Shown in pieces: positions 11,570 through 54,836 of a DNA stretch of 64,000 nucleotides. The translations under genes and the position numbers were made by a program. Position 1 is the first letter of the stretch. Every line of letters begins with the position of its first letter. The notes under the pieces were generated by a model. It was given only the letters and a program-made list of their open reading frames with translations. It ran no database searches and was not told the origin of the DNA. The stretch covers positions 62,001 to 126,000 of IMG/VR virus record IMGVR_UViG_3300045971_000577, one strand, 5' to 3'. Origin of the DNA: a virus.

Positions 11570-11759
11570 TCTTTTTACCTTTTAGTTTATCTACTACTTC
11601 TTGCATTTTGTACAGCTTCTTACATTCGAGTGGCATTCCTACGCTATGCACGACAGCAAAACATCTCGTACAACGATAGCTGATTCCGCTCTCAACGTCA
11701 AACTCCGCAATATTACCGCAGAGAAGAGTTACTTCCGGAAACTGACTATCAAGCGGCAT
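11553..11759 (-). CDS. Small zinc-knuckle protein, 68 aa
   Basis: MPLDSQFPEVTLLCGNIAEF followed by Y-R-C-T-R-C-F and L-E-C-K-K gives a C-x2-C plus two further Cys, probably one zinc site. ATG at 11759 is within the last codons of the upstream gene. An in-frame ATG at 11786 would add nine residues; the choice is uncertain. Confidence 0.6.
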   Translation of the reverse strand: MPLDSQFPEVTLLCGNIAEFDVESGISYRCTRCFAVVHSVGMPLECKKLYKMQEVVDKLKGKKNDRYP

Positions 11760-12855
11760 CGTCGTCTTCTCTGCCGTACTCGGCATCTTCAGCGTTCATC
11801 ACCGCGGCCATTGCATCGATCAGTATGTGAAATCCGAGATGATCGGTACATTGGCCACCCGCGCCGGATTGCTTGACCCACATTTTTCGGGTATAACCCA
11901 TGTAGGAATTGATCCAAGCAGTGGTAAGCACTTCCTTGGCAAAAGTAGCGAGCTTGTCCCATTCGCCCAGTTCGCAGAGTTCATTTACAACCTCCAATAC
12001 ATCGATAAGACCGTATGTACTGGTAGAATCTCGCTTGAAACTATTCATCCACTTGCCAGCAACGCATGGATCATTCCACTCGAACACATCGCCGGTGAGT
12101 GACCTGAAGAACTTCTTCATTGATGGATAACCCATCCTTTGATCGTCGGGTACTGCTGCAAGTTCTTCTTCAATGCGCTTACGTTCGTCGGCTTGCTCCT
12201 TCAGTCGACGAATGTACTCGGGAATCGATGCCTCAAGATCCTTGAAGTAGAAGTGGTTGTAACTCTTCTCGTATCCGTGTGTACCTTTTCCTTCACCTTC
12301 GTATTCTTCGATATACCACTTGTCCATGATCGCCCGGAAAATGTCTCCGTGAACAATCACGTGCGTCACAGCACGGAAGTTGTCAACCTTCTTGAGCTTT
12401 GTTGCCAACCGGTCAAGTTCAAACTGCTGGGATTGGGTAAGACCTGCTTCGCCCCTTACTTTTTCGAGTTCGCGAAGATCGTACTCGTCGCTGTTGAAAT
12501 AAGGCGTGAACTGAATACCGAGACGATCTTCAAGATCGGCTTCGAACATCAACTCGACGTCGAAGTTTTTCTGGTTCACTTCGCAGTCATGGATGGAGTT
12601 GGGACCTTGTCCGAATTCGTACAGTTGTTGCCTCATTGCTTCGACTACAACATTCAGCCCGTGACCGTGGCAATCTTCAACCGCGCCGTAGTCGTTGTAC
12701 TTGCCGTAGAATGGGACAGGACACACATCGTACAGTGCATTCGAATAACAGAACGTCTTCGGTTCGTTGTTTTTCAGCAACATGAACACAGCAACATCCT
12801 GGCCGCTCATGACGTGCAGATTTGAAATCATACAAGTACCGTTCCAGCTACCGAT
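11749..12855 (-). CDS. Conserved phage protein with apparent ATC start, 368 aa
   Basis: The first ATG (12831) has no ribosome site. Eight codons upstream, ATC at 12855 follows AGGAG by 7 bases and adds I-G-S-W-N-G-T-C, so the protein would begin (M)GSWNGTCMISNLHVMSGQDV. I recall the W-N-x-T-C-x2-S-x-L start as typical of a family of large-phage proteins of unknown function. ATC at 12858 and ATT at 12861 are alternatives. The rest is alpha/beta with acidic helices. The sigma70 promoter at 12882-12910 would start the RNA near 12875, leaving just room for this Shine-Dalgarno. Confidence 0.7.
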   Translation of the reverse strand: MGSWNGTCMISNLHVMSGQDVAVFMLLKNNEPKTFCYSNALYDVCPVPFYGKYNDYGAVEDCHGHGLNVVVEAMRQQLYEFGQGPNSIHDCEVNQKNFDVELMFEADLEDRLGIQFTPYFNSDEYDLRELEKVRGEAGLTQSQQFELDRLATKLKKVDNFRAVTHVIVHGDIFRAIMDKWYIEEYEGEGKGTHGYEKSYNHFYFKDLEASIPEYIRRLKEQADERKRIEEELAAVPDDQRMGYPSMKKFFRSLTGDVFEWNDPCVAGKWMNSFKRDSTSTYGLIDVLEVVNELCELGEWDKLATFAKEVLTTAWINSYMGYTRKMWVKQSGAGGQCTDHLGFHILIDAMAAVMNAEDAEYGREDDDAA

Positions 12856-12873
12856 GATAATTCTCCTATAAAG

Positions 12874-37245: not shown

Positions 37246-40197
37246 TCAAAGTGCGCTGAAGTCAAACAAGGTTTCCAGGTGTGCATGTTCCTTGTTTGTG
37301 CGGGATAGATCCCAATTCAAACAACCAACAAGATTTTTTACCTTTTGGTCAACAATACCTGCCATCATGTCTTCGCTGTCAAATGGTAGATCTAGGAACC
37401 ATTGTGGCAAGTGAACTTCGTCTACAGGATACGCAATACTAGAAAGCCTGTTCTCTGGGGTTTCACGTAGCTTGCAAACAATAATCTTCTGTCCGTCAAT
37501 AATACGCATGGAGTGTTGATCCATGTGCATATCCTTCATCCTATTCCATGCAAGACTTGCTGTTACGTGTCCGGGTACATGTAGATTGCCTACTTCTTCG
37601 CCCTTCATTTTCATATGCATTGCGGCATCAACTTTATCACGATAATGCGACAGTTTATTCACAGCTCTCGGTGTGCCTTGTTGCCACGGTTTCATATCCT
37701 CAAACTTTTCCTTGAACTTTCTGATTTTTTCAATAATAAAGTTTTCGCCCTTATCGGTAAGTGTGTCCAATAGAATCTCAGATAGAAACTGTTGTACAAA
37801 CTTAGGAGTATCTGCACGCTTCAAGTCCAGGCCCATTGCCTTCACCTTGCCAGGCTTGCCACCGACGTCAAGCCTGATTCCGTCCTTGTCAAACATCAGA
37901 CAAGCGTAACGCTTCTTTACAATCCAAAGGCCGCTTTCGGAAATAGTTTCTCTTGAGCTCGCAATAACTCCAGTTGACCGTTTAATGGGCACGTTGAGTT
38001 TGGTATGTAAAAAATCCGGGAACGTTGCCGAGACCGCCCCGGCAAGTCCATTATACGTATCAATGATGGACTCCTTTGTCCACTCGACCTCACCAGAATC
38101 AATCTCCCTTCTAAGAACTGGATATGCTGAAAAGTAGCACGAGTCAGTATCTCCGTAGACAATTGCGTCACCATAATGGTCATAGTTCCCTGTAATCATT
38201 TCGTTTGTTTTAGCCGCCATATGCTTGGTAATGGTTCTACCAGTCAATGTTGTAGATTGTCCGAGACGCTGATCGAAGAAGCGGCTTCCTGCGTTCAGCA
38301 AGGCGCCGTAAGCAGAGTTCAAGTTGATCTTCTTTACTAGCTGTCTCTTATCCCAAAATCCGATAACGCGGCGCAGGACCTTCTGATCCCGACTGATTGC
38401 CTTACCGTCCTTTACCATAAGATTGTGTTGATTCATGTATTGAACTACACGCTTTTTATGCCCTTCTTCCAGTAGTTCTTTCAACTTTTTTGGTCTATAT
38501 GCTTCGGACTCTAGGTAGGGATTAGCCTTAGTCTCTACATCGCTGATATCGTCATTTATGAACAAATCTTGAGTTATTTTGACACCTTCGATCTTTGGAT
38601 TATCTTCAATATCAGTATAGTTAGTCATGATACCTTGAAGAGTCTTGCGCTCACTATACCAACGTGTCAACAGACCCGGAATTACACCGTCAATGTCAGT
38701 TCTGAAAATAGTACCGTTAGAACTAATACACCACGGCTGCCCGGATTGAAAAATCAGGTCACTAAGTTCTTTACCTGTGACCTCGAACTCCTGACCGTCT
38801 TCCATATCTAGTATTAGCTTAGTCCCGATATCCTTATCGTAAAACTCTTCCATTTCTAGTACATTGAATCTATCGTTCCACCAAGATGCGAATGTATATT
38901 TCGCGCCCTTGCGTTCCCAGTCTGCAATAGCCTGATTTGTGCGATCAAGTCTAATCTGTCCAACAATAGTTTCTGGACTCATATTTAGCGTTCTAATAAC
39001 TGATGGATACAGCGACTTCATGTCAGTTGATGCAATCCACTTATGTAGCCCACGCTTCGGTGTAGCAACCCAACCGCCTGCCGCACGATTTGCTTCGCTT
39101 TCTTTGCCGTGCTTCTTATCAGGGCAAACCATATTACGGTTGTGAGCTTCCATAAGAACATTCTGGTCTGTAACTGCAACCGCGCCCATTGTAGTCTGAA
39201 TAAGAACACAGCTCGAATGGGCAATGGAACTTGCCAAATCAACGAACTGTAATTTTTTATCGAGTTTATCGAGAAGTCGGGTATCTTGGATGTTATACTC
39301 TAAGAACTTCTTAAAGTCGTCGTTATACAACTCATCCAATGTACCTTCGTACTCAACCTTTGTATCGCCTAGTTCAATTTCTGCAATTGAGTTTAGCTTG
39401 TAGCTGTGGCGCTCTTCATAGTTGTACTTCTTGTACAATTCAAGGTAGTCAACGTGTACACGACCGATAAGGTCATACGTAGGTTCTACCTTGCCGCCGC
39501 GTTCGATTTCACGAACCTTAGGTTGTTGTTCCCATAGGCATAATCTGCGTGCTTCTTGCTTACCAAGAATACGCTTGATTCTATTTACTACATACGGAAT
39601 ATCGTAAAATGAACTGTTCCAGCCGCTTAGTACATCTGCGTCTTCAATAACGTCCATAAATGCATTCAACATATCCCCTTCTTTTTCGAAGAGAACCACA
39701 TTACCGACTTGGTCTGCTATTTCTTGTGCTTCATCCCACGTAAGTGTCTCCGGTGGTATTGCTAGACAGATAATTTCATCTAACCATTGTAGATGTACAG
39801 AGATAGATGTAATAGAGTTCTTTGCATCTGCAGGATCCGACCAGCCAAAGTCTTTATCAAAGCTGGTTTCAATGTCGAAAAATGCTACATGAAGTGCAGG
39901 TGCGTCAATGTGCTGATAGTTGTGCTCGAGACAACGGAAAACAGGATCCACATCCGTTTCCCACTTCTTCACATTGTGAGAAAGTGTCTTAACAAGCTTT
40001 TGTTTTTCAGCGTATGTGCGTGGAACAACCTTCTTTACTGTATCGCCGTAGATAGACTTATTAGTCCCTCTCGGATCGTTTATAAAAAAGTGATAGTCAG
40101 GTGCGTATTCCTTGTAAACTCTCTTACCGTTTACTCTTTCAACAATCCTGATTAGTTCTGATTCGCCGCTCTTCTTGAAAAATGCGTCAACGTAGAT
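37246..40197 (-). CDS. DNA polymerase, family B (T4 gp43-like), apparent ATC start
   Basis: 983 aa if started at ATC 40197 (T4 gp43 has 898). Exo motifs: F-F-D-I-E-T (D108), S-G-W-N-S-S-F-Y-D-I-P-Y, Y-N-I-Q-D-T. Polymerase motifs: D-M-K-S-L-Y-P-S-V-I, K-I-N-L-N-S-A-Y-G, Y-G-D-T-D-S, V-K-K-R-Y-A. All look intact. The first ATG/GTG codon (GTG 39972) would cut off 75 residues that clearly belong to the family (IYVDAFFKKSGESELIRIVE). ATC 40197 follows AAGGGG by 7 bases and no other start codon lies between the upstream stop and it. Confidence 0.9.
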   Translation of the reverse strand: MYVDAFFKKSGESELIRIVERVNGKRVYKEYAPDYHFFINDPRGTNKSIYGDTVKKVVPRTYAEKQKLVKTLSHNVKKWETDVDPVFRCLEHNYQHIDAPALHVAFFDIETSFDKDFGWSDPADAKNSITSISVHLQWLDEIICLAIPPETLTWDEAQEIADQVGNVVLFEKEGDMLNAFMDVIEDADVLSGWNSSFYDIPYVVNRIKRILGKQEARRLCLWEQQPKVREIERGGKVEPTYDLIGRVHVDYLELYKKYNYEERHSYKLNSIAEIELGDTKVEYEGTLDELYNDDFKKFLEYNIQDTRLLDKLDKKLQFVDLASSIAHSSCVLIQTTMGAVAVTDQNVLMEAHNRNMVCPDKKHGKESEANRAAGGWVATPKRGLHKWIASTDMKSLYPSVIRTLNMSPETIVGQIRLDRTNQAIADWERKGAKYTFASWWNDRFNVLEMEEFYDKDIGTKLILDMEDGQEFEVTGKELSDLIFQSGQPWCISSNGTIFRTDIDGVIPGLLTRWYSERKTLQGIMTNYTDIEDNPKIEGVKITQDLFINDDISDVETKANPYLESEAYRPKKLKELLEEGHKKRVVQYMNQHNLMVKDGKAISRDQKVLRRVIGFWDKRQLVKKINLNSAYGALLNAGSRFFDQRLGQSTTLTGRTITKHMAAKTNEMITGNYDHYGDAIVYGDTDSCYFSAYPVLRREIDSGEVEWTKESIIDTYNGLAGAVSATFPDFLHTKLNVPIKRSTGVIASSRETISESGLWIVKKRYACLMFDKDGIRLDVGGKPGKVKAMGLDLKRADTPKFVQQFLSEILLDTLTDKGENFIIEKIRKFKEKFEDMKPWQQGTPRAVNKLSHYRDKVDAAMHMKMKGEEVGNLHVPGHVTASLAWNRMKDMHMDQHSMRIIDGQKIIVCKLRETPENRLSSIAYPVDEVHLPQWFLDLPFDSEDMMAGIVDQKVKNLVGCLNWDLSRTNKEHAHLETLFDFSAL

Positions 40198-40208
40198 AGC
40201 AGTTCCCC

Positions 40209-40460
40209 TTAACCTAGGCCACCGGCCTTGTACAGATCTTCGAGCTCGTCAAAAGCTTCGCGCTGATCGTTCATGGTGCCCTTTTGGACAATCTTGATAA
40301 GTTTGTTTAGTTGTGCTGGCTTGACTTCAAGCTCTTCTGCGATGGCGGAAACAGTATCCTTTAGACCCTCTTTTAGATCCTCTATTTCTTGCATCACCTG
40401 TACACCATCAGCTACCAGTTGCTTCAATCTGGCCACGTTTTCAGGGCTTAGTTTCGCCAT
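40209..40460 (-). CDS. DsbA-like dsDNA-binding protein, 83 aa
   Basis: MAKLSPENVARLKQLVADGV, then V-M-Q-E-I-E-D-L-K-E-G-L, A-E-E-L-E-V-K-P-A-Q-L-N-K-L and F-D-E-L-E-D-L-Y fits the small helical DsbA proteins of T4-like phages, which bind double-stranded DNA and influence late transcription in T4. Shine-Dalgarno AAAGGAA. It ends 11 bases before the polymerase ATC, and its stop region overlaps the polymerase ribosome site. Confidence 0.7.
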   Translation of the reverse strand: MAKLSPENVARLKQLVADGVQVMQEIEDLKEGLKDTVSAIAEELEVKPAQLNKLIKIVQKGTMNDQREAFDELEDLYKAGGLG

Positions 40461-42453: not shown

Positions 42454-43023
42454 TTACGGTCTTTTCATGCCTTTCTTGACACGTTCGAGTACCATACGTT
42501 TGATTTGAATGTTTAAATTAAGTGGCAAACATTCATAGAACTTTTCAACATTGTTATTCAGTGCATATTCGCGCAGTAGTGATGCGCTTATACCTTCCAC
42601 ACCTTCGAGCAAAGAATCACGATTTCCTGCAGATATGATTTCGAGATCCATTCCCCATGCATTTGCGTATTGTGGCATTCTTTCTGTAAATTGTGGTGCT
42701 TGGTCACTGCCTACAACTAGGAAAGCTTTGGTGTATTTTCCCCTGAAACTTTCTAAGGCCTGAAATGGAGTCTTGATTGCAGAATCACGAGAGATAGACA
42801 CACCGGGAAAAGCTGCTTGGCAAACACGAAGCTTGAATGCCCAATCTAGTGGATCTGTAGGAGCCTTTTGCACTTGAGATAGGAAAACACGGTGATCTGC
42901 ACCGTGTTTTCTCGCAGTCTCGACGAGACACTGAACAAGTTTCTCGTGGCCAATAGTCGGCGGTTGCATGCATATTCAGCGGCCGAAGGTAAAAACAACA
43001 GATTTGTTGCTTCCTTCGGCCAT
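42454..43023 (-). pseudogene. NadM-like nucleotidyltransferase interrupted by TGA
   Basis: From ATG 43023 behind AGGAGG: MAEGSNKSVVFTFGR, TGA, I-C, then MQPPTIGHEKLV and the rest. Without the three codons TGA-ATA-TGC the sequence reads FTFGRMQPPTIGHEKLV, the normal nucleotide-binding start of cytidylyltransferase-fold enzymes (NMN adenylyltransferase type). Later motifs V-V-G-S-D-Q-A and G-I-S-A-S-L-L-R-E-Y fit. The remaining ORF from ATG 42969 (171 aa) lacks the first strand and any ribosome site. A 9-bp stem spans codons 2-15. The gene follows a GIY-YIG endonuclease by 13 bases. Confidence 0.75.
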
Positions 43024-54376: not shown

Positions 54377-54814
54377 TTATAGACTCAATAATACTTTATC
54401 AATTTGTCCGTACTGCCAAGTATTCCAATTTGGTGTTTGTGGTGTTGGCTGAATATAATCTCTTGTCAACACTGTTCTTAGAAATACGAAATTACCGATA
54501 AAGGATGTTGCCATTGAACCTGTATCACCGCCATTGGCACCAGTAGGTGCGAACGGATCAATAGGAAATGGAATATATGGAGTATTTATGTCTCCCATTG
54601 GGTTTATCTTTATCCAGAACCAATCTTCGGGTTTTGGATCTAACGCAAGTGTTCCTTGCAGTCCGAAGCCACCTACCAGGTTTTGATAGATAACTTGCAC
54701 GGTGTGTATGCCATCCGTATAGCCGTAATAGGCGTCAGCTTTAATTGGCTCTCCAAAGACATTCCAGTCGGTGCCAGTGTTCGTAAGCATTAGCACTGAT
54801 TTTCTGATTGCCAT
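54377..54814 (-). CDS. Late structural protein, 145 aa
   Basis: MAIRKSVLMLTNTGTDWNVF, then beta-rich with Pro/Gly loops (PYIPFPIDPFAPTGANGG). First gene of the fibre cluster after a late motif (54837-54844) with AGAAGGAAC before ATG. Probably a small virion protein; no family recognised. Confidence 0.65.
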   Translation of the reverse strand: MAIRKSVLMLTNTGTDWNVFGEPIKADAYYGYTDGIHTVQVIYQNLVGGFGLQGTLALDPKPEDWFWIKINPMGDINTPYIPFPIDPFAPTGANGGDTGSMATSFIGNFVFLRTVLTRDYIQPTPQTPNWNTWQYGQIDKVLLSL

Positions 54815-54836
54815 AGTGTTCCTTCTTGTTCTCTAT

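Follow-up and report, generated by a model that had tools for sequence, protein, structure and literature searches.

Where does translation of the DNA polymerase of this phage begin, and if it begins at a codon as poor as ATC, what would such a start do for a replication enzyme? The window considered here, a stretch of 64,000 nucleotides (G000:C1:62001-126000) within a 369,145-bp virus record, has the following features around the polymerase start.

37246-40197, minus strand: gene for a family B DNA polymerase (T4 gp43-type), 983 codons plus stop (PF03104, PF00136, phrog_262).
40195-40197, minus strand: assigned ATC start codon of the polymerase gene (aligned with codon 1 of relatives; no canonical in-frame start upstream).
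40205-40210, minus strand: Shine-Dalgarno sequence (SD) AAGGGG, 7 nt before the ATC (from the sequence; predicted anti-SD pairing -8.3 kcal/mol; same SD in the relative L051).
40209-40460, minus strand: preceding gene, an 83-aa DsbA-like transcriptional regulator (phrog_639, E = 6.5e-12; PF11126 at 24.8 bits, just under the cut-off of 25).

The polymerase product contains exonuclease and polymerase domains (PF03104 and PF00136 both above cut-off, phrog_262 E = 6.5e-190). On the minus strand the junction reads GGC CTA GGT TAA (stop 40211-40209), GGGGAACTGCT, ATC TAC GTT GAC GCA TTT, the SD having its AA in common with the TAA stop of the preceding gene. The original prediction placed the polymerase start at this ATC, and our reading of the sequence agrees with its description in every detail checked: AAGGGG stands 7 bases before the ATC, the first canonical codon within the polymerase is a GTG 75 codons in, and no ATG, GTG or TTG lies between the ATC and the in-frame stop 18 codons above it. 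On this sequence evidence, the gene has two marks of a near-cognate-start gene, a start other than ATG, GTG or TTG and an SD placed for that codon (spacing 7).

We collected 70 related loci from IMG/VR and read the homologous codon in each, with correction by hand where the match began late; removal of near-duplicates and of eight isolated phages left 53 non-redundant rows, metagenomic assemblies throughout, some of them interrupted or short and three (L061, L064, L068) with frame breaks downstream. The alignment with related phages that had been suggested as a check was run on this material. The ATC of the window falls on codon 1 (M/V/L/I-Y-[VI]-D) when aligned to about 70 relatives, and the protein alignment begins at this codon, with one additional residue in some distant members. 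Codon 1 is ATG in 28 of the 53 clade rows, GTG in 8, TTG in 4, ATT in 11 and ATC in 2, that is, ATT or ATC in 13/53. Each of these 13 has an SD and an in-frame stop no more than 22 codons upstream, with no canonical in-frame start above codon 1, and its first canonical codon comes 17-175 codons downstream; the clearest cases are L033, L034 and L040, which read TAG-AAA-ATT. The ATT-type genes are under purifying selection (L034/L040, dN 0.056, dS 1.12). Of the distinct relatives the closest is L051 (87% over 607 columns), which has the same SD and, at the same place, AAGGGGAAC-AAAA-ATT. Because the codon-1 position is conserved, ATT or ATC stands there in many relatives, in-frame stops lie close upstream and an SD is present every time, the comparison argues strongly for assigning the polymerase start to ATC 40197.

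The same alignment bears on the idea that ribosomes reach the polymerase frame from the preceding gene, by frameshifting or by reading through its stop, with the ATC being an internal codon. Such entry would fit the polymerase frame of the window, which is open for 17 codons above the ATC, and the presence of a phage tRNA with a CTA anticodon; however, in-frame stops stand as near as two codons above the ATT in relatives and are mostly TAA or TGA, not TAG, the residues above codon 1 are unconserved with similarity beginning at codon 1, and each ATT or ATC has its SD. We therefore regard upstream entry, largely refuted for the clade by the in-frame stops of relatives, as very improbable. Recoding of TAG, considered for the TAG-AAA-ATT leaders, is not general, the upstream stop being TAA or TGA in most ATT/ATC cases.

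A separate peculiarity of frame is seen in two diverged contigs (L061 4985-5044 and L068 2924-2965), in which the conserved N-terminus (IYIDAYYNKK / MYIDCFYNKK) is followed by sequence one base out of frame (AAT AAA AAR G|GT CGG); a pattern scan gave no others, and the break may be a programmed frameshift or an old defect. Interrupted or split polymerase genes occur in L050, L057, L068, L071 and PA5oct (L099), the last with a Hef-like homing endonuclease gene between the two polymerase parts.

What distinguishes the relatives with a weak start from the others is the layout of the gene. In most relatives the polymerase start touches or overlaps the stop of the DsbA-like regulator. Contact of this kind with the preceding stop is found for 33/40 canonical starts, typically as TAATG, compared to 0/13 for ATT/ATC starts (Fisher p = 9e-8), and phylogenetically independent pairs point in the same direction in 6-7 of 6-7 informative pairs (p about 0.016). 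The 20 free-standing starts of the clade are ATT 11, ATC 2, TTG 4, GTG 2 and ATG 1. SD strength did not differ between the ATT/ATC and the canonical starts of the clade; the stronger SD that we had initially expected in ATT/ATC members gave no significant comparison. Two arrangements are seen in the clade: weak start codons go with genes that stand alone, and strong ones with genes that are probably coupled to the one before. We suspect that the layout serves to limit polymerase synthesis.

This difference in layout also bears on how the relatives with ATG are to be understood. The original prediction had named a related phage with ATG at this position as a sign of sequencing error, and taken literally such phages exist; yet their starts touch or overlap the stop of the gene before, and the nearest relative carries ATT; because of these two facts we read the ATG relatives as evolution rather than error. 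That an ATG was misread or misassembled as ATC might be suspected in any metagenomic assembly with ATG relatives. We reject such an error as scarcely credible, since the same base is present in a second contig, L070, the nearest relative L051 has ATT with the same SD, and many independent ATT/ATC cases are spread over the tree in other contigs. We note that L070, which has the same ATC and matches the window at 100% along 5,635 bp, is the same population as the window and supports the assembly only, not independent evolution.

On the clade tree at least 12 changes of start state are required; the tree was built quickly and several of its forks have weak support. Like our other tree it was made from the polymerase, and the leader may have a recombination history of its own. 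Nine isolated jumbo phages checked all start the polymerase with ATG, and a separate set of 72 outgroup polymerases has ATG or TTG throughout. The ATT/ATC trait is patchy and a minority state, and given these isolated phages and outgroup polymerases any brake that it provides is dispensable. No relatives were found in bacterial genome contigs.

How specific to the polymerase is such a start? We screened syntenic stretches of six related records together with the loci, 94 families with 1,017 aligned members, for members with no canonical start near the modal start but with ATT, ATC, ATA, CTG or ACG behind an SD; this automatic screen can miss cases, 302 of the 1,017 members not being placed exactly at the modal start. 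The polymerase gave 12 of the listed candidates. We judged one other to be credible, a gene in the window with these features:

11749-12855, minus strand: phrog_5960 gene of unknown function, with an ATC start.
12853-12855, minus strand: second ATC start in the window (ATC-GGT-AGC-TGG), with ATG there in five homologous rows, two of them from the same phage.
12863-12867, minus strand: SD AGGAG, 7 nt before the ATC (from the sequence).

The remaining candidates looked like internal or antisense matches, as judged by eye. Given the ATC of this unrelated gene, ATT/ATC starts are near-specific, but not strictly limited, to the polymerase. By eye we also saw a possible ATT start (AGGAGAAAGAAA-ATT-TCA) in L061 2030-2468 (plus strand), a homologue of the window gene 54377-54832, which the screen passed over because a TTG stands two codons further.

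The second ATC gene, together with this possible ATT start in L061, would be expected if the phage or its host read AUC and AUU efficiently, through a special factor or a modified initiator tRNA, in which case the codon would be no brake. The original prediction had offered altered initiation as one way out, for which we find no support. No IF3_C gene was detected in 14 phage records, and none of the phage tRNAs inspected is of initiator type, three tRNA-Met(CAT) and a tRNA-Ile(GAT) having no initiator anticodon-stem features by eye. Because neither was found, a private initiation system is argued against; moreover, nearly all other genes have ATG, GTG or TTG. We consider altered initiation quite unlikely. 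The phage tRNAs number about 47 (G000:C1, about 45-51 kb and 226-277 kb; L092-L095), accompanied by a tmRNA with tag ANDSFYTEALAA, and the one with the CTA anticodon, called Pyl by ARAGORN, is perhaps an amber suppressor.

A more distant query brought in two more types of T4-like polymerase, with ATT in L259 and L261 and ATC in L268, L270 and L276. Scanning IMG/VR with the pattern GGAG-N4-9-ATY-AGY-TAY-RTH-GAY-KC gave 23 contigs, 18 of which carry a polymerase N-terminus (ATC 16, ATT 2); with the exception of L332 and L347, these have no canonical in-frame start upstream. The matching ATR scan gave ATG in all of the at least 80 matches listed, with no ATA among them. A tree of 93 rows of this second group, 15 of them ATC/ATT, has 11 changes of state (many branches are weak), and the group adds 14 non-redundant ATC/ATT rows, the fifteenth, L071, being also in the first set. 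Close relatives differ in their start (L335 ATC vs L377 ATG; L259 ATT vs L253 ATG). We found no close isolated phage of this group. Among relatives, a switch to ATC or ATT has taken place independently some twenty times, a recurrence suggesting that a poor start codon is a means by which phages repeatedly restrain their replication enzyme.

Could these switches be nearly neutral, the strong SD making the start codon matter little, so that ATT and ATC drift in with no regulatory role? The patchy distribution, the recent switches, the differences between close relatives and the second ATC gene of the window are all of the kind that drift would leave. However, drift should reach other genes, while in the survey ATT/ATC was nearly confined to the polymerase; it would not predict the association with a free-standing start; and it sits poorly with the lack of ATA among the at least 80 ATR matches listed. 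We consider drift unlikely on balance.

Our preferred explanation, to which we give a probability of roughly 0.7, is that the AUC start at 40197 acts as a static translational brake through host IF3. Polymerase translation would begin at AUC 40197, directed by the SD AAGGGG, with the AUC decoded by the host fMet initiator tRNA despite a third-position mismatch; IF3 would destabilise such near-cognate initiation complexes, leaving little polymerase per mRNA, as for infC, pcnB or sigR. The AUU/AUC brake would have evolved repeatedly in the clade where the polymerase gene stands free of the preceding gene, AUG or GUG being used where the start touches or overlaps the stop before it and translation is likely coupled. 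The comparison shows the position of the start, its recurrence, its near-specificity to this gene and its association with a free-standing layout; the low yield, the dependence on IF3 and selection favouring scarce or adjustable polymerase are what we infer from the sequence pattern.

To our knowledge, few bacterial genes start with AUU or AUC, and we found no paper on phage polymerases with ATT/ATC starts. Initiation at near-cognate codons is repressed by IF3, and this includes infC itself, which starts at ATT in E. coli or ATC in Streptomyces (PMC5472188); E. coli pcnB has an AUU start according to a title cited in PMC13009471. As far as that title goes for pcnB, the likeness lies in a near-cognate AUU or AUC behind an SD keeping a protein scarce, although for the polymerase the scarcity is predicted; the difference is that the gene here encodes a phage DNA polymerase, with a trait gained or lost many times in the clade and no IF3 feedback. 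Streptomyces sigR, with a GTC start and experimentally shown IF3 repression (PMC5472188), is likewise a non-infC gene with a non-canonical start, but differs in codon and gene, and the state seen here alternates among relatives. S. aureus cvfC1 (AUU) and ccpN (AUA) combine conserved non-canonical starts with extended SDs and lower yield (PMC13009471), whereas the polymerase SD, strong as it is, does not exceed in strength that of polymerase genes with canonical starts.

Homologous to this polymerase is gp43 of T4/RB69, which is restrained at translation initiation, T4 gp43 being limited by binding its own mRNA (PMC3014915). Unlike T4, with its gp43-bound operator hairpin, no such element was detected at this RBS or those of six ATT relatives, where RNA folds were no better than shuffles; one motif and local folds revealed no T4-type operator hairpin upstream of the RBS, and the operator-like motif of the second polymerase group occurs in 0 of the window-clade loci scanned. 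That motif, hairpin-like GTCG-CTCACGTTACGAG-CATG, lies 53-63 nt before the polymerase start (L332, L334, L357, L360, L374, L398, L411, L413, L423 and others) and has compensating changes in its stem (GCTC/GAGC, GCTGG/CCAGC, GTTC/GAAC), making it a candidate gp43-type operator. The ATT/ATC polymerases L259, L268 and L335 have a common AT-rich leader (ATAAGTATTTATTA ... TTGGAGAATTATTAT) without the operator-like hairpin, resembling a T4 late promoter. Perhaps, as a more tentative and rather doubtful extension, T4-type phages have converged on AUU/AUC starts as a control that is largely specific to the polymerase, with an IF3-gated replicase level derepressed as infection shifts the IF3:ribosome ratio, in place of gp43-operator control or coupling to the preceding gene.

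The repeated gain of a weak start in the replicase of many phages amounts to a natural, replicated experiment on selection for such a start, and the related pairs with ATG vs ATC/ATT are ready-made for comparing start codons. Gene callers limited to ATG, GTG and TTG can be expected to call such polymerases too short or at the wrong start in metagenomic phage genomes, with an error of 17-175 codons within the clade. Elsewhere in the window, a nucleotidyltransferase-like gene (42454-43000, minus strand) reads FTFGR-stop-ICMQPPT where homologues have FTFGRM-PPT, with an in-frame TGA in a 9-base insertion (CGC TGAATATGC ATG) that is the same in L070, of the same population.
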